47,429 bases of DNA from NCBI GenBank assembly GCA_017960585.1, contig JAGCYX010000012.1, positions 1-47,429 on the forward strand. Direction: 5' to 3'. Numbering within the stretch: position 1 is the stretch's first letter; the number at the start of each line of letters is the position of its first letter. This document shows positions 3,200 through 44,267 of this stretch, piece by piece. The notes beneath the pieces are model-generated. The model saw only the letters and a program-made list of their open reading frames with translations. It did not search any database and was not told the origin of the DNA. Origin of the DNA: Bacteroidales bacterium (GTDB taxonomy: Bacteria; Bacteroidota; Bacteroidia; Bacteroidales; UBA932). Position numbers and translations under genes: made by a program.

Positions 3200-4611
3200 C
3201 CGCCCAGTTCCTGGATCGACCTATCTTCCGCATCGTCAGTGAGATCGCTGCCGAGCGGGGGGTGCGTGCCTTCGTGATCGGCGGCTTCGTGCGCGACTGC
3301 TTCCTGGGCCGGCCGCGCTCCGACATCGACATCGTGGTGGAGGGGAGCGGCATCGATTTCGCGCGGGCCGTTGGGGAGCAGACGCATCAGCGCGTGAATT
3401 ATTTCAAGAATTTCGGGACGGCGATGCTACATTTCCGCGGTGACGAGGTGGAGTTCGTGGGGGCGCGTAAGGAGTCGTACCGCCGCGAGTCGCGCAAGCC
3501 CATCGTGGAGAACGGCACGCTCGAGGATGACCAGCAGCGGCGTGATTTCACCATCAACGCGATGGCGTTCTCGCTGCAGCCGGAGGATTTCGGGGCGCTG
3601 GTGGATCCCTTCGGGGGCATCCGCGACCTGGACGCCGGCATCATCCGCACGCCGCTCGACCCAGACACGACCTATTCCGACGATCCGCTGCGGATGCTGC
3701 GGGCGGTGCGTTTCGCGACCAAGCTCTCCACGCCGGAGCATCCTTTCACCATCGTTCCCGAGTCGATGGCGTCGATGCGCCGGATGGCGGACCGCCTGAA
3801 GATTCTTTCGTGCGAACGCATCGCGGAGGAACTGAACAAGATGCTGGCGGCGGACGATCCGGCCATGGCTTTCCGGCTGATGGACGAGGCGGGGCTGCTG
3901 GGCTACGTGCTGCCGGAGCTGCTCGCCCTGAAGGGGGTGGAGACGGTGGACGGCCGCGGGCACAAAGATAACTTTGCGCATTCGCTCGCTGTTCTTACTA
4001 ACGTTGCGCAAGTATCTGATAATCTTTGGCTTCGTTGGGCGGCGCTGCTGCACGATATCGGCAAGCCGGCCAGCAAGCGCTACGATCCGGCGGTGGGCTG
4101 GACCTTCCACGGCCACGAGGTGGTGGGGGCCCGCATGGTGCCGAAGATCTTCGACCGGTTGCGGCTGTCGATGGACGAGATGAAGTATGTACAGAAGCTG
4201 GTGCGGCTGCATCTGCGGCCGATTGCGCTGGTGGACGACGAGGTCACGGACAGTGCCGTGCGCCGCCTGCTGTTCGATGCGGGCGACGATGTCGACGATC
4301 TGATGATCCTTTGCAACGCTGACATCACCTCCAAGAACGAGGCGAAGGTGGCGCGCATCCGGGCGAATTTCGAGCTGGTGAAGCGGAAGCTGGTGGAGGT
4401 GGAGGCGAAGGACGCGATCCGCAATTTCAAGAATCCGATCGACGGGGAGTATGTGATGCAGGTGTACGGGATTCCGCCGTGCCGGGAGATCGGTGTCCTG
4501 AAGGAAATGGTCAAGGAGGCGATTCTGGACGGGGTGATCGGGAATAATTTCGAGGAGGCGGATGCCTTCATGCGGCAGCACGCTTCCGAGCTTGGGCTGC
4601 GTGAAGTATGA
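3187..4611 (+). CDS. cca: CCA-adding tRNA nucleotidyltransferase with HD domain
   Basis: Adds or repairs the 3'-CCA end of tRNA. The class II nucleotidyltransferase core is at the N-terminus: GGFVRDCFLGRPRSDIDIVV (about residues 32-51), with the DID carboxylates binding metal, then RRDFTINAMAF and DPFGGIRDLDAG, then a poly(A)-polymerase-type RNA-binding region with RMLRAVRFATKL. A C-terminal HD phosphohydrolase domain follows (LRWAALLHDIGKP, about residues 280-292, with HGHEVVGARM). Length 474 residues is usual for the HD-containing Bacteroidota form. The start overlaps the preceding gene by 13 nt and the stop overlaps the recombinase start as ATGA. A patch at 3961-4030 is clearly more AT-rich than the rest of the gene although it encodes the conserved HD region. 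Confidence 0.92.
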   Translation: MSTITAQFLDRPIFRIVSEIAAERGVRAFVIGGFVRDCFLGRPRSDIDIVVEGSGIDFARAVGEQTHQRVNYFKNFGTAMLHFRGDEVEFVGARKESYRRESRKPIVENGTLEDDQQRRDFTINAMAFSLQPEDFGALVDPFGGIRDLDAGIIRTPLDPDTTYSDDPLRMLRAVRFATKLSTPEHPFTIVPESMASMRRMADRLKILSCERIAEELNKMLAADDPAMAFRLMDEAGLLGYVLPELLALKGVETVDGRGHKDNFAHSLAVLTNVAQVSDNLWLRWAALLHDIGKPASKRYDPAVGWTFHGHEVVGARMVPKIFDRLRLSMDEMKYVQKLVRLHLRPIALVDDEVTDSAVRRLLFDAGDDVDDLMILCNADITSKNEAKVARIRANFELVKRKLVEVEAKDAIRNFKNPIDGEYVMQVYGIPPCREIGVLKEMVKEAILDGVIGNNFEEADAFMRQHASELGLREV

Positions 4612-5636
4612 TCGAGCGTTACCTGACTTATCTCGCCTCCGTCCGCCGCTATTCGCCCCGGACCATTGAAATCTATCGTGACGTCCTGGAATCCTTCTGT
4701 ATATACACGCGTCGCAGCGACCTGCCTCCGGAAACGTCCTGCTGCGCAGGACCCCTCCCAACGCCTTCGTCGTTGGACCCCTCCCTCTTACGGAGCCGAG
4801 GGTGGCTACGGTTTCCGGAGGCAGTCGCTGACGTCGCGGAATTAATTAATGTTCAGACGGTTCGGGCGTATGAGGTGTACTTGATGGACGAGAAGAAGGA
4901 GAGTGCGAAGACGGTGAATCTTCATCTGAGCGTGCTGAGCGGGTTCTGCAAGTATCTGATGAAGCAGGGGGTGCTGGAGAGCAATCCGGTGCGGTTGGTG
5001 AGCCGTCCGAAGCAGGAGAAGCGCCTGCCGGTGTTCTACCGGGAGGATTCGATGCAGGAGTATTTCGAGCGGACGAAGGGGGTGCTGGAGTACGGGAAGT
5101 ACGAGGACCAGCTGGAGCGGATGATCCTGGGGCTGCTGTACGGGACGGGGATACGCCGGAGCGAGCTGATCTCGCTGAATCGGGATTCGGTCGACTATGC
5201 CCGCCGGGTGCTGCGCGTGCGCGGAAAAGGGGATAAAATGCGCGAAATTCCGCTGACGCCTTCGCTTTGTGATGAAATTTTGCTATATTTACAATCGGTT
5301 GACTCTTTGAAATGCGCGGACAGATCTGACGGAGCCCCACTCCTGCAGACTCCTGGGGGCGTCCGTCTGTATCCGGTCTACGTGGACCGGGCGGTCAAGG
5401 CGGCGCTGGGATCCGTGGACGGCATCACCGGCAGGAAGTCCCCGCACGTGCTCCGGCACACGCTGGCGACGGAGCTGCTGGACGGGGGCACGGACCTCAA
5501 TTCCATCAAGGAATTGCTGGGCCACAGCTCCCTGGCGGCGACGCAGGTCTACACGCACAATTCCATCGAGCGGCTGCAAACTGTTTATAAATCCGCCCAT
5601 CCACGGGCAAAAACTGATGGTAACCATGGAGATTAA
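4608..5636 (+). CDS. XerC/XerD-type tyrosine recombinase carrying an in-frame palindromic insert
   Basis: Site-specific tyrosine recombinase of the Xer type, expected to resolve chromosome dimers at dif. The SAM-like core-binding domain occupies about residues 1-130 and the catalytic domain about 140-325. Catalytic residues are all present: R183 in GTGIRRSEL, K207 in VRGKGDK, H280 and R283 in HVLRH, H306 in LGHSS and the nucleophile Y315 in QVYTH. The protein is 342 residues, about 40 longer than usual; the excess is residues 35-76, proline- and serine-rich, exactly covering the palindromic element at 4710-4833. The insert falls between helices of the DNA-clamping domain, so the enzyme may still work. 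The start overlaps the CCA gene (ATGA) and the end overlaps the hibernation-factor gene. A low-GC patch lies at 5222-5320. Confidence 0.9.
   Translation: MIERYLTYLASVRRYSPRTIEIYRDVLESFCIYTRRSDLPPETSCCAGPLPTPSSLDPSLLRSRGWLRFPEAVADVAELINVQTVRAYEVYLMDEKKESAKTVNLHLSVLSGFCKYLMKQGVLESNPVRLVSRPKQEKRLPVFYREDSMQEYFERTKGVLEYGKYEDQLERMILGLLYGTGIRRSELISLNRDSVDYARRVLRVRGKGDKMREIPLTPSLCDEILLYLQSVDSLKCADRSDGAPLLQTPGGVRLYPVYVDRAVKAALGSVDGITGRKSPHVLRHTLATELLDGGTDLNSIKELLGHSSLAATQVYTHNSIERLQTVYKSAHPRAKTDGNHGD
4710..4833 (+). repeat. Palindromic structured element, copy 1, inside the recombinase gene
   Basis: The arms 4710-4735 and 4811-4833 are complementary over about 23 pairs (right arm GTTTCCGGAGGCAGTCGCTG), interrupted only by small bulges in the left arm. 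Between them lie a perfect 7-bp hairpin (GTCCTGC at 4736-4742, GCAGGAC at 4746-4752), a second hairpin (CCAACG at 4758-4763, CGTTGG at 4771-4776), and a 33-nt block at 4778-4810 that matches copy 2 at 43260-43291 except for one extra G. The element has no stop codon in the gene's frame. Unlike the outer stem, the core is shared with copy 2. No transposase or coding capacity of its own is visible, so it is a non-autonomous repeat. Confidence 0.85.
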
Positions 5637-5919
5637 GTTCAAAGCCCTCAAGTTCGAAGCCGGTGAGCAGCTCACCGCCTTCGTGGAGAAGAAAGTCTCG
5701 CGCCTGTCCCGTTTCTGCGAGGACCTGGCCGAAGAGATCGAGGTAGCGCTCGAAGACCATCTCAAACAGGGCAAACTCGCCAAGATCCAGATCCATGTTC
5801 CTGGCGAGGAGCTCATCATCGAGCGGGAGGCAGACACCTTCGAAAACGCGATTACGGAAGCCGTAGACGCCATGAAGGAGAAACTCACCCGCGTCAAGGA
5901 AAAGAAATTCGAGAACTAA
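5626..5919 (+). CDS. hpf: Ribosome hibernation-promoting factor, HPF/RaiA family
   Basis: Binds the 30S decoding region in stationary phase and promotes inactive ribosome dimers or monomers. The 97-residue protein has the short HPF fold: an opening beta strand (MEIKFKALKFEAGEQL), helix (LTAFVEKKVSRLSRFCEDL), central strands (EVALEDHLKQGKLAKIQIHVPG) and the terminal helix (ADTFENAITEAVDAMKEKL) with a basic tail. It lacks the long-HPF C-terminal dimerisation domain. An ATG at 5617 would add three residues; 5626 is preferred because MEIKF is where family members begin. It overlaps the last 11 nt of the recombinase gene and is followed by a strong terminator, making it the last gene of the run from 2798. 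Confidence 0.92.
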   Translation: MEIKFKALKFEAGEQLTAFVEKKVSRLSRFCEDLAEEIEVALEDHLKQGKLAKIQIHVPGEELIIEREADTFENAITEAVDAMKEKLTRVKEKKFEN

Positions 5920-6033: not shown

Positions 6034-6855
6034 ATGAAAGGACTGAAAATGTTTTCTCTGGCCGTTGCCGCAAGCCTGGCGACGGTGTCCCTGACCGGAT
6101 GTGATTTTGTTGCCAAGTTTCTGGCAGGCGAAGACGGTGCGGATGTAGTCGAGAGCCTGGGCGATATGCTCGGCGGCGGTACGCTCAGCGCGGTCGAGAC
6201 CGCCCAGAATGCGGTTGTGAACGGCAACACCCTGACCTACGGCAGCCACACGTACACCATCGTGTCTGACATCGACGTCAACACGCGCGAGTACAAGACC
6301 CCGACGGCTTCCGTGACCTTCACCAACGTCCCTGCGAATTATGCGGAGTTCGAGGCGGTCTACAAGGGCCTGCTCGGCAAGAGCATCGCCGGCACCGCCG
6401 CGATGATCCCGATGGCCATCGAGCTGTACGCCCGCGACGCAGCGGTGGGTGAGCGCTGCCTGAACCTGCTGTGCAACAGCGACGCCACCGTGAGCGGCAT
6501 CGTCCGCATCCTCAAGACCAAGCTGGTGCCCTCGCAGTACGCTCCGGAGAATGATTCCTACATCCAGCGTTATATGGCCGCTGCCCTGCTCAAGGGCGCC
6601 GTCAATACCAACGCCTACACCCCGGACCGCCCGTACACCGTGGAGATGACCATGTCGCCGAACGGCGTCAAGGACGCTCCGCTGACCGGCGGCGAAGTGA
6701 CCTACATCTACATCCTGGCCCAGGGCTGGGACACCTTCCAGCGCGGCGTGGATATCTTCCAGGCCTACGACGACACATACTACAAGGTCTTCAACTGCCC
6801 GTCCTGCTACGTGCAGTGCAAGAACATCCGCGGCACCTGGCCCGGACTCGAATGA
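6034..6855 (+). CDS. Lipoprotein of unknown function, tandem paralogue A
   Basis: A 273-residue secreted lipoprotein: MKGLKMFSLAVAASLATVSL then the lipobox LTGC, so it is probably anchored in the outer membrane or periplasm. I do not recognise the family. The mature part has NGNTLTYGSHTYTI followed by a conserved block EFEAVYKGLLGKSIAGTAA, the motif GERCLNLLC, and a C-terminal cysteine cluster PSCYVQCKNIRGTW. Those cysteines and the GTW ending are shared with the next gene, so the two are duplicates. It is the first gene after a strong promoter and is followed 27 nt later by its paralogue. The start at 6034 is set by the promoter position. Confidence 0.8.
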   Translation: MKGLKMFSLAVAASLATVSLTGCDFVAKFLAGEDGADVVESLGDMLGGGTLSAVETAQNAVVNGNTLTYGSHTYTIVSDIDVNTREYKTPTASVTFTNVPANYAEFEAVYKGLLGKSIAGTAAMIPMAIELYARDAAVGERCLNLLCNSDATVSGIVRILKTKLVPSQYAPENDSYIQRYMAAALLKGAVNTNAYTPDRPYTVEMTMSPNGVKDAPLTGGEVTYIYILAQGWDTFQRGVDIFQAYDDTYYKVFNCPSCYVQCKNIRGTWPGLE

Positions 6856-6882: not shown

Positions 6883-7692
6883 ATGAAACGTTTCTTCCTG
6901 GGTGTGACCGCCGTCGCTGCGATGCTTTCGCTGAGCGGCTGCGAGTATCTGGACCAGATACTTCAGCTGGCGGATGACGCCTCCAAGATTATCGGCGGGA
7001 CCTATACGGACAAGTGGGCCAACCTGGTCAACGAGACGCAGCGCGACGTCAAGGTGAATGGCAATACCTTGACCTACGGCGACGACCATACCTATACGAT
7101 CGTCGAGGATATTGATGTGAATTCAAAAGAGTTCAACCGACCCACGGCTACCGTCACCTTCTCCAACATCCCGTCCGGGTACACGGAGTTCGAGGCGGTC
7201 TACAACAACCTGCTCGGCAAGAGCATCGCCGGCACGGCCGCGATGATCCCGATGGCGATGGAAATCTATGCCCGCAACACCACCACCGGAGAGAAGTGCA
7301 TCAAGCTGCTCTGCACCAGCGGGGCGGCCTCTGATATGATCACCGGCGTGAAGGGCAAGGTCATTCCTTCCACCACGACGGGCAATGACGGTTATATCGA
7401 GCGTTTTATCTCCGCGGCGCTGCTGAAGGGTGCCAAGCCTTCCAACGCGTATGCTCCGGATTATCCTTATACCGTGGAGATGACGATGACGTCCAACGGC
7501 GTCAAAGAGTCCGCCCAGGAAGGCGGCAAGGTCACGTACATGAGCATCGTGACTTCCGGCGGCTGGAGCACGGCCAATCGCGGCGTGGACATCTTCCAAG
7601 CCAATGGTTCGAGCCAGTATAAGGTTTACGGCTGTGCGGGTTGCTATTCCCAGTGCGCGTCAATTACCGGGACCTGGGCCGGCATGAAATAG
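6883..7692 (+). CDS. Lipoprotein of unknown function, tandem paralogue B
   Basis: A 269-residue lipoprotein (signal MKRFFLGVTAVAAMLSLSGC, lipobox LSGC) paralogous to the preceding gene. Shared features are NGNTLTYGDDHTYTI, EFEAVYNNLLGKSIAGTAA, GEKCIKLLC, the RGVDIFQA segment and the C-terminal AGCYSQCASITGTW cluster. DNA identity is highest at 7186-7256, which matches 6346-6416 with about four differences in 71 positions, well above the rest of the gene, while the N-terminal third and the region after GEKC diverge. The two were probably made by tandem duplication. No enzyme motif is visible; the conserved cysteines suggest disulphides in an exported protein. It converges on holA with a 4-nt gap. 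Confidence 0.8.
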   Translation: MKRFFLGVTAVAAMLSLSGCEYLDQILQLADDASKIIGGTYTDKWANLVNETQRDVKVNGNTLTYGDDHTYTIVEDIDVNSKEFNRPTATVTFSNIPSGYTEFEAVYNNLLGKSIAGTAAMIPMAMEIYARNTTTGEKCIKLLCTSGAASDMITGVKGKVIPSTTTGNDGYIERFISAALLKGAKPSNAYAPDYPYTVEMTMTSNGVKESAQEGGKVTYMSIVTSGGWSTANRGVDIFQANGSSQYKVYGCAGCYSQCASITGTWAGMK

Positions 7693-40861: not shown

Positions 40862-43188
40862 TACACAATGCAATTGCGAAGGCGTTCGCCTTCCTGGGCG
40901 CCCTGGCCGCCCTCGCTGCCTGCGGCAGCCCCGCCGGCAAGGTCTTACCCGCCATCCAACCCGATCCTGCCGTGGAGGCGCAGGTCGAGAAAGTCCTCAA
41001 GGGCATGACCCTCGAGGAGAAAGCCGGCCAGATGGTGCAGCTCTCCATCCTGCTGGTCCAGGATGAAACGGGCGAGAACCTGGATCCCGCCAAGCTGGAG
41101 AAGATCTTCGGGCAGTACAAGGTCGGCTCCATTCTGAACGTGCTGAACGACAAGGCGCAGAGCCGCGAACATACGGCCGAACTCGTGCGCCAGATGCAGG
41201 AAGCGTCCATGCGGATACTCGGTACCCCGTGCATCTACGGCTTGGATATGATCCACGGCGCCAGCTACCTCACCGACGGCTCGCTCTTCCCGCAGGAGAT
41301 CAACCTCGGTGCCACGTTCAATCGGGATTACGCCGCGGCGATGGGCCGCGTGATGGCGTATGAGACGCGTGCCGCGCAGGTGCCGTGGGTGTTCTCCCCG
41401 GTCATGGACCTGGGCCGCGACGCCCGCTGGTCCCGCCAGTGGGAGAGCTGGGGCGAGGATCCCTATCTGCAGGCCGAGATGGCCCGCACCGAAACCCTGG
41501 CCCTGCAGGGAAATGATCCCAATCACGTGGACCTCGAGCACGTGGCCGTGAGCATCAAGCATTTCATGGGCTACGGCGTGCCGCATACCGGCAAGGACCG
41601 CACGCCCGCGTATATCGCAGAAAACGACCTGCGCGAGAAATTCTTCCGCCCGTTCAAGGAATGCTTCGAGGCCGGCGCGCTGACCGCGATGGTCAATTCC
41701 GCTTCCATCAACGGCGTCCCCACGCATGCCAACTATGAATTGCTGACCGTCTGGGTGAAGCAGCAGCTGGGCTGGGACGGCATGCTGGTCACGGACTGGG
41801 CCGACATCGACAACCTCTATACCCGCGACCACGTGGCTGCCGACAAGCGGGAGGCCGTGAAGATCGGCATCAACGCGGGCATCGATATGATCATGGACCC
41901 GTATGATCCCGAATGCTGCAACGTGATCGTGGACCTGGCGAAGAGCGGCGAGATTCCGATGTCCCGCATCGACGACGCCGTGCGCCGCGTTTTGCGTCTC
42001 AAGGTCCGTCTGGGCCTGTTCGACAACCCGACCTGGGAAGGGGAGTATCCGGAGTTCGCCTCCAAGGAATTCGCACAGCAGTCCTACGCCGCGACCGTGG
42101 AGTCCGAGGTGCTGCTCAAGAACGAAGGCCTCCTGCCGCTCAAGGGCACCGAGCGCATCCTCGTCACGGGCCCGAATGCCAACAGCCTGCGCGCCATGAA
42201 CGGCGGCTGGTCCTACACCTGGCAGGGTTCCGCGGACGATTTCGTGCCGCAGTACAATACGATTCTGGAGGCGCTGCAGCAGCGTTTCGGCAAGGTGAGC
42301 TATGAACCCGGTGTGCAGTATGTCAACATCCCGATGGCCTGGCAGGCCGAGGATGCTTCCGGCATCCACAAGGCCGTGGCCGCCGCCCGCGGGGTGGACG
42401 TGATCGTGGCCTGCGTGGGCGAGAACAGCTACTGCGAGACGCCCGGCAATATGGACGACCTGAACCTTTCGGAGAACCAGAAGGAGCTCGTGCGGCAGCT
42501 CGCCGCCACCGGCAAACCGGTCATCCTGGTGCTGAACGAAGGCCGTCCTCGCATCATCGGCGACATCGAGCCGCTGGTAAAGGCGGTCGTGGACGTGATG
42601 CTGCCGTCCAACTACGGCGGTGACGCCCTGGCGGCGCTGCTCGCCGGCGACGAGAACTTCTCCGGCAAGCTGCCGTTCACCTACAGCAAGCACATCAACG
42701 CCCTGCATACCTACGACTACAAGGTCTCCGAGCATCGCGAAGTGATGGAGGGTTCCTACAACTACGACGCCGTGATGGATGTCCAGTGGCCCTTCGGCTA
42801 CGGCCTGAGCTACACCACCTTCTCCTATGGAAATATGCAGCTGCAGAGCCCGGCGGAGTTCGGCCCGAACGACGTGCTGAAGTTGTCCGTGGACGTGACC
42901 AATACCGGTTCCCGCGCCGGCAAGGAGGCCGTGCTGCTCTACAGCTCCGACCTCGTGGCGTCCATCATTCCGGACGTGAAGCGCCTGCGCGGCTTCGAGA
43001 AGATCGAGCTGCAGCCGGGCGAGACGAAAACCGTTTCCTTCGAGGTTCCCGCCTCGGAGCTGGCGTTCGTCGGCGCGGACGGCAAGTGGCGCCTGGAGGA
43101 AGGCGATTTCCGTCTCAGTTGCGGCGGCCAGGCCGTGATGGTACATTGCATCCAGACCAAGGTCTGGTTCACCCCGAATATCAATTAA
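40858..43188 (+). CDS. GH3 beta-glycosidase, lipoprotein
   Basis: A 776-residue GH3 enzyme with lipoprotein signal MIHNAIAKAFAFLGALAALA followed by the lipobox LAAC. The barrel domain contains GTPCIYGLDMIHGASYLTDG, KHFMGYG and the nucleophile D313 in VTDWADIDNL; the alpha/beta sandwich has LLKNEGLLPLK and VGENSYCETPGN, where the acid/base region is expected; the C-terminal fibronectin-III-like domain includes WPFGYGLSYTTF. Probably a beta-glucosidase acting on oligosaccharides released with the overlapping GH31, as in xyloglucan breakdown; beta-xylosidase is the main alternative. A palindromic element follows 5 nt after the stop. Confidence 0.9.
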   Translation: MIHNAIAKAFAFLGALAALAACGSPAGKVLPAIQPDPAVEAQVEKVLKGMTLEEKAGQMVQLSILLVQDETGENLDPAKLEKIFGQYKVGSILNVLNDKAQSREHTAELVRQMQEASMRILGTPCIYGLDMIHGASYLTDGSLFPQEINLGATFNRDYAAAMGRVMAYETRAAQVPWVFSPVMDLGRDARWSRQWESWGEDPYLQAEMARTETLALQGNDPNHVDLEHVAVSIKHFMGYGVPHTGKDRTPAYIAENDLREKFFRPFKECFEAGALTAMVNSASINGVPTHANYELLTVWVKQQLGWDGMLVTDWADIDNLYTRDHVAADKREAVKIGINAGIDMIMDPYDPECCNVIVDLAKSGEIPMSRIDDAVRRVLRLKVRLGLFDNPTWEGEYPEFASKEFAQQSYAATVESEVLLKNEGLLPLKGTERILVTGPNANSLRAMNGGWSYTWQGSADDFVPQYNTILEALQQRFGKVSYEPGVQYVNIPMAWQAEDASGIHKAVAAARGVDVIVACVGENSYCETPGNMDDLNLSENQKELVRQLAATGKPVILVLNEGRPRIIGDIEPLVKAVVDVMLPSNYGGDALAALLAGDENFSGKLPFTYSKHINALHTYDYKVSEHREVMEGSYNYDAVMDVQWPFGYGLSYTTFSYGNMQLQSPAEFGPNDVLKLSVDVTNTGSRAGKEAVLLYSSDLVASIIPDVKRLRGFEKIELQPGETKTVSFEVPASELAFVGADGKWRLEEGDFRLSCGGQAVMVHCIQTKVWFTPNIN

Positions 43189-43193
43189 CTTAT

Positions 43194-43319
43194 GCGCTCG
43201 CCGTCCTGCTCCCTCCGGATGCCGTCGCTTCGCGACCCCTCCCACCGCTACGCGGCGGGCCCCTCCCTCTTACGAGCCGAGGGTGGCTACGTGCCCCGGA
43301 GGGAGAGGACGGCGAGCGC
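43194..43319 (+). repeat. Palindromic structured element, copy 2, between GH3 and the dehydrogenase
   Basis: The arms pair over about 24 bp with a single bulged G: CGCTCGCCGTCCT then CTCCCTCCGG on the left (43195-43218), CCGGAGGGAGAGGACGGCG and AGCG on the right (43296-43318). Inside are hairpins GTCGC/GCGAC (43224-43236) and CCCACCGC/GCGGCGGG (43241-43259, one mismatch), then a 32-nt block (43260-43291) that equals 4778-4810 of copy 1 apart from one missing G. A 10-nt GACCCCTCCC is also identical (43234-43243 and 4750-4759). Stem sequences differ between copies but stay paired. The gap 43189-43331 is otherwise empty. Confidence 0.85.
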
Positions 43320-43331
43320 GAAAGGAAAGTA

Positions 43332-44267
43332 ATGATGAAGATAGTCTTTCTGGATGCCGCCACGCTGGGGGAGACCCCGCTGGACGAGATCGCTGCGCAG
43401 GGCGAGCTGGTCTGCTATCCCTTCTCGAATCGCGAAGAATCGCTGGAGCGGGTGGGGGACTGCGAGGTGCTGATCGTGAACAAGGTGCGCGTGGACGAGG
43501 TACTGCTGTCGTGCGCCCCGCGCCTCCGGTTGATCTGCGTGGCCGCCACCGGCATGAACAACATCGACCTGGAAGCGGCCGCGGCCCGGAATATCCCGGT
43601 TCGCAACGCCGTCGGCTATTCCACGGAATCCGTCGTGCAGTCCACCTTCGCACATTTGCTTTCGCTGGCGGGCTATTCGCCCTATTTCGACGACTGCGTC
43701 AAGAGCGGCCGCTATTCCGCCGGCACGCTCTTCTGCGACATTTCCCATCCTTATCCGGAGCTGGCCGGCAAGACGCTGGGCATCATCGGCCTGGGAACCA
43801 TCGGTGCGCGTGTGGCGGCCGTGGCGTGCGCTTTCGGAATGCAGGTCATCTATTACTCGACCTCAGGCACGTCCCACAATCAGGACTACCCGAGCGTGCC
43901 GCTGGACGAGTTGCTCGCCAGTGCGGATGTGGTCAGCGTCCACGCACCGCTGAACGAGCGCACGAAGGGCCTGATCGGCGCGCAGGAACTGCGCCGGATG
44001 AAGCCGACGGCCTTCCTGCTGAACCTGGGCCGCGGCGGCATCGTGGACGAGTCGGCGCTGGCGGAGGCCGTAGATGCCGGCGTGATCGCCGGCGCAGCGC
44101 TGGACGTGTACGTGAAGGAGCCGCTGCCGGCGGACAGCCCGCTGCTGCACGTGCGGCACCCGGAACGCTTCCGCTTCACGCCGCACACGGCCTGGGCGAG
44201 CCGCGAAGCGCTGCTTCGCCTTGTGCATCAGATCGCTGAGAACATTCGTGGCACGGTTTTGGATTAG
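43332..44267 (+). CDS. D-2-hydroxyacid dehydrogenase
   Basis: A 311-residue NAD(P)-dependent oxidoreductase of the D-isomer 2-hydroxyacid dehydrogenase family (glycerate/hydroxypyruvate-type). The nucleotide-binding motif is TLGIIGLGTIGARVAAVA; the catalytic Arg is in LNLGRGGIVDES, the Glu in DVYVKEPLPADSP, and the His in FTPHTAWAS. Substrate cannot be told; hydroxypyruvate/glycerate or phosphoglycerate are typical, though the PGDH regulatory tail is absent. The frame is open upstream through the whole palindromic element, but the conserved start is MKIVFLD; ATG at 43332 or 43335. It is separated from GH3 only by the element and ends in a terminator at 44325. Confidence 0.88.
   Translation: MMKIVFLDAATLGETPLDEIAAQGELVCYPFSNREESLERVGDCEVLIVNKVRVDEVLLSCAPRLRLICVAATGMNNIDLEAAAARNIPVRNAVGYSTESVVQSTFAHLLSLAGYSPYFDDCVKSGRYSAGTLFCDISHPYPELAGKTLGIIGLGTIGARVAAVACAFGMQVIYYSTSGTSHNQDYPSVPLDELLASADVVSVHAPLNERTKGLIGAQELRRMKPTAFLLNLGRGGIVDESALAEAVDAGVIAGAALDVYVKEPLPADSPLLHVRHPERFRFTPHTAWASREALLRLVHQIAENIRGTVLD

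Follow-up and report, generated by a model that had tools for sequence, protein, structure and literature searches.

Gene Content of the Locus

The window (the whole 47,429-nucleotide stretch of contig JAGCYX010000012.1 analyzed here, from a Bacteroidales MAG) encodes a Xer-type recombinase whose gene, xerC, contains a palindromic element within its reading frame. The best NCBIfam family for the product was TIGR02224 (XerC; E 6e-71, 239 bits, below the 335-bit cut-off), and the protein aligned with 27 XerC orthologues of the genus. The following features were distinguished:

4608..5636, plus strand: xerC host gene, 342 aa including the insert (NCBIfam profile and orthologue alignment)
4708..4838, minus strand (folding strand, antisense to xerC): whole palindrome with arms (fold z −7.2; covariance model R1)
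4708..4735, plus strand: left arm of helix P1, bulged, its sequence nearly free between copies (fold and arm comparison)
4736..4752, minus strand: hairpin P2, with the tip GCGCAGC on the minus strand (alignment and R1)
4758..4776, minus strand: hairpin P3, hypervariable between copies (alignment and R1)
4783..4787, minus strand: GAGGG (minus), 3′ strand of the pseudoknot (covariation, columns 92–97)
4791..4810, minus strand: hairpin P4 (covariation)
4798..4802 in plus coordinates, minus strand: P4 loop CCCTC (minus), 5′ strand of the pseudoknot (covariation)
4811..4838, plus strand: right arm of P1 (fold and arm comparison)
5617..5919, plus strand: gene 3′ of xerC that overlaps it, judged RaiA/HPF-like by inspection and from the name of a PDB chain matched by XerC
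about 43180..43333, minus strand: second, intergenic copy (inverted repeat I8; fold z −6.9; R1 43209–43305)

The first-pass annotation placed an in-frame palindrome at 4710–4833 of a Xer-type gene; this interval falls within the 131-bp palindrome at 4708–4838, which corresponds to residues ~34–77 of XerC and leaves the frame open. These are also the residues by which the protein exceeds its relatives in the orthologue alignment (A4), as had been claimed. Pfam matches to the N-terminal SAM-like domain either ended at residue 34 or started at residues 80–83. The catalytic residues were intact, again in line with the earlier reading: the arginine, lysine, HxxRH, histidine, and tyrosine, which we take to be the catalytic set of XerC, were all invariant columns of A4.

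An AlphaFold model based on the 28-sequence alignment was of moderate quality (overall pLDDT 76, pTM 0.47). It placed the insert between helices 17–37 and 82–95, which were mostly near 90 pLDDT; the block means were 42, 45, 45, and 67 for residues 41–80. We infer from this model that the insert is a disordered loop in the N-terminal domain. Judging by the open frame, the cell probably makes XerC with ~40 extra residues of former mobile DNA.

Two further observations concern the neighborhood. The end of xerC overlaps the RaiA/HPF-like gene at 5617–5636, and PDB chain 9i5v_14 (401 aa), named RaiA, matched XerC residues 84–337, which hints that XerC–RaiA fusions may exist. Segments 6246–6481 and 7086–7321, 840 bases apart, were 73% alike and are probably neighboring paralogous genes.

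Structure of the Element

None of 200 shuffled sequences was as stable as the palindrome at 4708–4838 (z −7.2). The covariance model R1, for which 40 copies were selected from 92 candidates, detected exactly two minus-strand copies in the window when hits with E up to 1 were accepted: 4722–4824 (E 4e-16) and 43209–43305 (E 2e-14). The latter is the intergenic second copy noticed earlier. No match to Rfam 15 was found in the window at the gathering score; at E up to 10, only mir-3199 appeared, with 26 and 25 of 100 bits for the two strands, in a match that follows the palindrome.

The minus-strand consensus reads P1 arm, P4 (loop ACCCTC), TAA, GAGGG, AGGGG, P3 (CCC...GGG), AGGGG, P2, and P1 arm. 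In an alignment of 108 matches (A5; 100 chosen loci, 101 of the matches distinct), 95.5% of 3297 cells paired, and 751 cells were changed on both sides, versus 209 after shuffling and at most 104 after sliding. Compensatory changes were found in all five helices; the P1 counts taken from the A3 set lean upward because its copies were chosen for good arms. The pseudoknot joins the P4 loop with GAGGG. Its two variable pairs (UA 73, GC 21, AU 3, CG 2 and CG 80, UA 17) contained no mispaired cells, and the other three pairs contained eight; the model behind A5 did not include the pseudoknot. Conservation of the core is partly built into the 177-copy sample described below, which was found by core patterns.

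The bias toward one strand was also evident from mismatches. Among 158 distinct arm pairs, 79 mismatches were wobbles on the minus strand, 25 were wobbles on the plus strand, and 96 were of other kinds; one P3 pair read on the minus strand was GU 50, AU 45, GC 3, and CG 1. Loops of P2 and P3 on the minus strand were often GNA or GNRA-like, e.g., GCGAAGC (by reading, uncounted). In DNA, short loops of the GNA type have very high stability. Structural conservation applies to one strand, here the one antisense to xerC, and covers P1, P4 with the pseudoknot, P3, and P2; both RNA and single-stranded DNA are compatible with this fold.

Distribution of the Family

The element belongs to a dispersed family. 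With R1, 24 copies were found in the MAG from which the window comes. Within the genus, 81 of 101 genomes had matches, with a maximum of 34 in one genome, and the remaining 20 had none (41 candidates scored per genome). Of 197 other genomes drawn from the order, only G186, G238, and G088 matched (21 candidates scored per genome), and one of the 194 misses, G085, belongs to the same genus. No match at E up to 1e-4 was found in 394 other genomes drawn from the phylum; with 10 candidates scored in each, some weak copies may have escaped this search. At least 120 named records with the exact core pattern were from Bacteroidales or Bacteroidia bacteria by title, many of them from ruminants. Viral contigs, plasmids, and phages gave no match in three scans, one of which used the exact pattern only.

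Copies within Genes

Frame keeping was analyzed in 177 distinct copies found by pattern. A 3-periodic Markov model, for which the loci themselves served as training data, was applied to up to 210 bases on each side. Both flanks were confidently coding for 78 copies. In 63 of these (one of them, L018, chimeric), the flanks lay on the same strand in the same phase with no stop; two had the same phase with a stop, five the same strand but another phase, and eight opposite strands. Phase was thus kept in 65 of the 70 confident same-strand copies, versus a third expected for random insertion (binomial 2e-25, a value to be read with the non-independence of copies at orthologous sites and with L018, which ought to leave the 63). 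Among 90 copies that were not confident, 22 were in the same phase and open, 6 in the same phase with a stop, 28 on the same strand in another phase, and 34 on opposite strands. Five copies at edges and four without computed arms fell outside both groups. An earlier test by codon usage (37 through, 9 in the same frame with a stop, 12 with both sides coding in different frames, and 110 with one side or none) was rejected in favor of the Markov model, as it failed to separate sense from antisense in GC-rich sequence.

The hosts read the element in both orientations and in five of the six frames. The plus strand of the element was read in 36 of the 63 in-frame hosts (13, 14, and 9 by phase) and the minus strand in 27 (21, 6, and 0 by phase). 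The unused sixth frame would run in register with the core's conserved TAA. With five frames in use, there is no selection for a shared peptide.

In the window's genome, 12 of the 24 copies lay in frame in genes. XerC was counted by hand, and the copies on C92 and C4 were left out because the automatic calls showed a stop or a short frame nearby. Ten of the eleven hosts other than XerC were scanned, and all ten matched profiles: DsbD, RNase R, an RlmB/SpoU methylase, an FAD-dependent protein, a PG_1098/THUMP-like protein, a MocR-type aminotransferase, TldD, PmbA, YgiQ, and PcrA/UvrD. A single domain match spanned the insert in RNase R, YgiQ, and MocR. The first-pass annotation had attached meaning to the host being a recombinase; this host is incidental, because eleven other copies of the same genome sit in frame in other genes.

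Adjacent tldD and pmbA genes (L307, G000:C57) each contained an in-frame copy, the pmbA copy being partly decayed. A second repeat, encoding the peptide CHSERSEES, was also in frame in some of these host proteins, at L015, L167 (RibF-like by eye), and L115, with a variant in L073.

The xerC Site in Relatives

Of 61 genomes of the genus, 55 yielded a XerC. Thirty xerC loci and L018 were inspected; alignment A4 comprised 28 XerC proteins of the 29 found (L193 was omitted, and L207 yielded none). An insert of this size was present in three rows only (G000, G082, and G008). The comparison with orthologues proposed in the first-pass annotation thus left 25 of 28 proteins without the insert, and none of these carries the residues as ordinary XerC sequence.

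The three filled sites differ. In G000 and G082, xerC runs antisense to the folding strand; in G008, where the copy has diverged, the folding strand is the sense strand. In G082, CCCGT/ACGGG replaces CCCTC/GAGGG; in G008, P4 is altered yet still paired. Orientations and frames differ, so the peptides at this site are unrelated among the relatives. Repeated filling of one site (G000, G082, G008, and G015 on a chimeric contig) might be taken to mean that the insert is a useful peptide altering XerC, e.g., its choice of site, about which the first-pass annotation had asked. This explanation is very unlikely in view of the unrelated peptides, the low confidence with which the stretch is predicted, the 25 orthologues without an insert, and the many unrelated hosts; altered site choice found no support.

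The fourth filled case, in G015, lies on contig L018 (G015:C84), an apparent chimera in which a QueH-like gene (named by eye) seems to be joined to xerC inside the element core. The chimera was exposed by its poorly matching arms, and mismatched arms of a copy could act as a misassembly alarm. The second xerC of the G015 bin (L207) lacks the element core. The element does therefore cause chimeras, and a repeat misjoined into xerC could in principle have produced the locus in the window as well. We regard such an artefact as extremely improbable: both flanks in the window form one xerC frame, the arms pair, and G082 and G008 are filled at the same site in separate assemblies.

Arms, Core Orientation, and Empty Sites

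The arm sequence is nearly free between copies, with less than 0.5 bit at 19 of 24 positions, and the arms drift while staying paired. Within the G016 and G238 subfamilies, the arms were constant, as expected after a recent burst; the arms thus travel with the unit and drift later. The same constancy ruled out another candidate explanation, namely that the arms are copied from the target at insertion. A tendency for the core to follow the genome and the arms to follow the locus was partly seen. Without G016, the identity of P2 and P3 was 0.70 for copies of the same genome, 0.64 for the same locus, and 0.54 for neither, and arm identity at one site ranged from 0.34 (RibF) to 0.81 (YggS).

At the YgiQ site, the arms of G062, G061, and G005 were nearly alike, and the core of G062 ran the opposite way to those of G061 and G005. 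Both orientations also occurred at a single site in YggS and a MiaB-like gene (both by eye), in an unnamed gene (L011 versus L152), and in xerC. These cases would fit a self-inverting in-frame cassette, whose core turns between its own arms in working genes with five of the six frames remaining open, and whose pseudoknotted single strand (single-stranded DNA or antisense RNA) is recognised. We consider this reading unlikely; if it were true, one enzyme could carry either of two unrelated loops, and inversion within populations would amount to a recombinase-independent or structure-guided loop switch in housekeeping enzymes.

Both filled and empty sites were found among relatives. For YgiQ, 12 of 29 loci were readable, 8 of them filled and 4 empty; for YggS, 24 of 26 were readable, with 6 filled and 12 empty. 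The YggS site also showed an apparent one-arm remnant in G019, G062, and G028, a partial element in G034, and other insertions in G020 and G066. The same YggS loop holds a Gly/Ala-rich repeat or an ALSSLKSA.. stretch in L224 (G020), L221 (G062), and L140.

These sites bear on another explanation, according to which the copies are genes or sites of a functional structured RNA or single-stranded DNA signal, selected locus by locus, with mobility secondary and the frame merely tolerating them. The strand-specific folding would agree with it, as would the compensatory changes in all five helices, the arms that drift yet pair, the CCCGT/ACGGG swap of G082, and the changed but paired P4 of G008. However, 20 of 101 genomes of the genus are without a match, many relatives have individual sites empty, and decayed copies and apparent one-arm remnants occur; moreover, in 36 of 63 cases the host mRNA runs antisense to the folding strand, so that an RNA would need its own promoter. 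We therefore judge a selected signal to be rather unlikely.

We failed to find a target-site duplication by eye in 15 rows (14 from G016 and one from another MAG) or in 14 rows of G238. No autonomous relative sharing the ends was found in G238, the sole genome searched, where a search with the ends gave 14 matches, 12 at known copies and 2 at contig ends. Many of the G238 copies (L278–L320) had common outer flanks, ATAAGTG and CGGAAC or similar, and further modules upstream were also common, as in mosaic repeats.

A Candidate Transposase

Y1 HUH transposase genes (PF01797) were found in 14 of 14 element-bearing genomes versus 2 of 12 element-free genomes (Fisher 1e-5); above the family cut-off, the counts were 12 of 14 versus 2 of 12. 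The genomes were chosen by hand (12 of the 20 element-free ones), and the Fisher value ignores phylogeny. Around Y1 hits, only 3 of 40 regions, which covered 240,646 bases and represented 38 of 50 hits from the chosen genomes plus both of G000, contained copies (5 in total), which is near chance. GGGAGGGG was absent from the 250-base flanks of all 19 Y1 genes inspected; GCGNAGC was present in such flanks of 4 of the 19, and seven of the 19 were flanked by other direct repeats of at least 16 bases. The scarcity of copies near Y1 genes and the absence of GGGAGGGG from their flanks argue against a simple RAYT story.

Comparison with Known Repeat Families

The nearest parallel is the Rickettsia palindromic element (RPE). 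According to excerpts of PMC2229807 and PMC10969869, RPE are palindromes of 105–146 bp that lie between genes and in frame in unrelated conserved genes. The first report, as given in an excerpt of PMC2229807, had them in frame in 19 genes, and one product (Gmk) was translated and active; nearly half of the R. conorii copies are within ORFs (PMC10969869, in excerpt). The likeness to RPE proposed at the outset holds insofar as a dispersed palindrome is read in frame: the 131-bp palindrome (z −7.2) is within the RPE size range, and copies are found in frame in unrelated conserved genes as well as between genes. Unlike RPE, the copies share no peptide and use five frames and both orientations, the core is found in either orientation at one site, and the family belongs to another phylum and has a pseudoknotted three-hairpin core with a nearly free stem sequence. 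This comparison is one of described traits.

In-frame palindromes also occur beyond Rickettsia (PMC3733652 and PMC2229807, in excerpt). REPs are found within genes in many species, and CGTC REPs are reported from Bacteroidetes (excerpt of PMC3733652). As in REP/BIME sequences, for which some ORF-borne cases are described in the excerpt, the hairpins are imperfect, and Y1 genes co-occur with the element. In A3, most rows have the tag CGTC ahead of P2, and a minority have GTAG ahead of P4. However, in contrast to REPs of 20–40 bp, the unit is a pseudoknotted three-hairpin structure with long arms that spans 96–130 bp in one set of copies and up to 177 bp in the sample used for the frame analysis; unlike RAYT-associated REPs, it is near Y1 genes no more often than by chance.

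Bacterial MITEs (Correia/NEMIS, ERIC, RUP), as described in excerpts of PMC2229807, are about 100–200 bp long, have no transposase gene, mostly carry terminal inverted repeats, and in some cases form ORF fusions. The short unit, the terminal inverted repeats (constant arms in G238 and G016), and the lack of a transposase gene are shared with MITEs. No target duplication was seen by eye and no parent transposon was found in G238, and the internal pseudoknot supported by covariation sets the family apart. The best reading, on this comparison of traits, is that the family consists of RPE-like coding palindromes with MITE-like traits. As for the novelty in Bacteroidota that had been presumed, a literature search of incomplete coverage returned no such element for Bacteroidales, although CGTC REPs had already been reported from Bacteroidetes (excerpt of PMC3733652).

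Origin and Implications of the Insert

The insert of XerC is most probably one copy of a mobile element that is MITE-like, non-autonomous, and about 100–180 bp long, and its translation would be passive. Such a copy would have inserted into xerC and persisted there because it was free of stops, left the frame intact, and fell between two helices of the N-terminal domain, in a loop that tolerates insertion; it would now be translated passively as the disordered loop predicted by the model. Copies that broke needed genes would have been lost. Movement may proceed via a folded single strand and perhaps, very tentatively, with a Y1 HUH (RAYT-like) transposase acting in trans. The core may be inverted by strand switching or by recombination of its inverted arms with each other.

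The best-known RPE-like coding palindromes are those of Rickettsia; the present ones occur in gut Bacteroidales, where dozens of genes contain them, including many housekeeping genes. Annotators and assemblers should be aware that the element adds about 40–60 residues to enzymes and may create chimeric contigs. The defined, strand-specific pseudoknotted fold offers a handle on how coding palindromes move, and the family forms a natural library of tolerated protein insertions.
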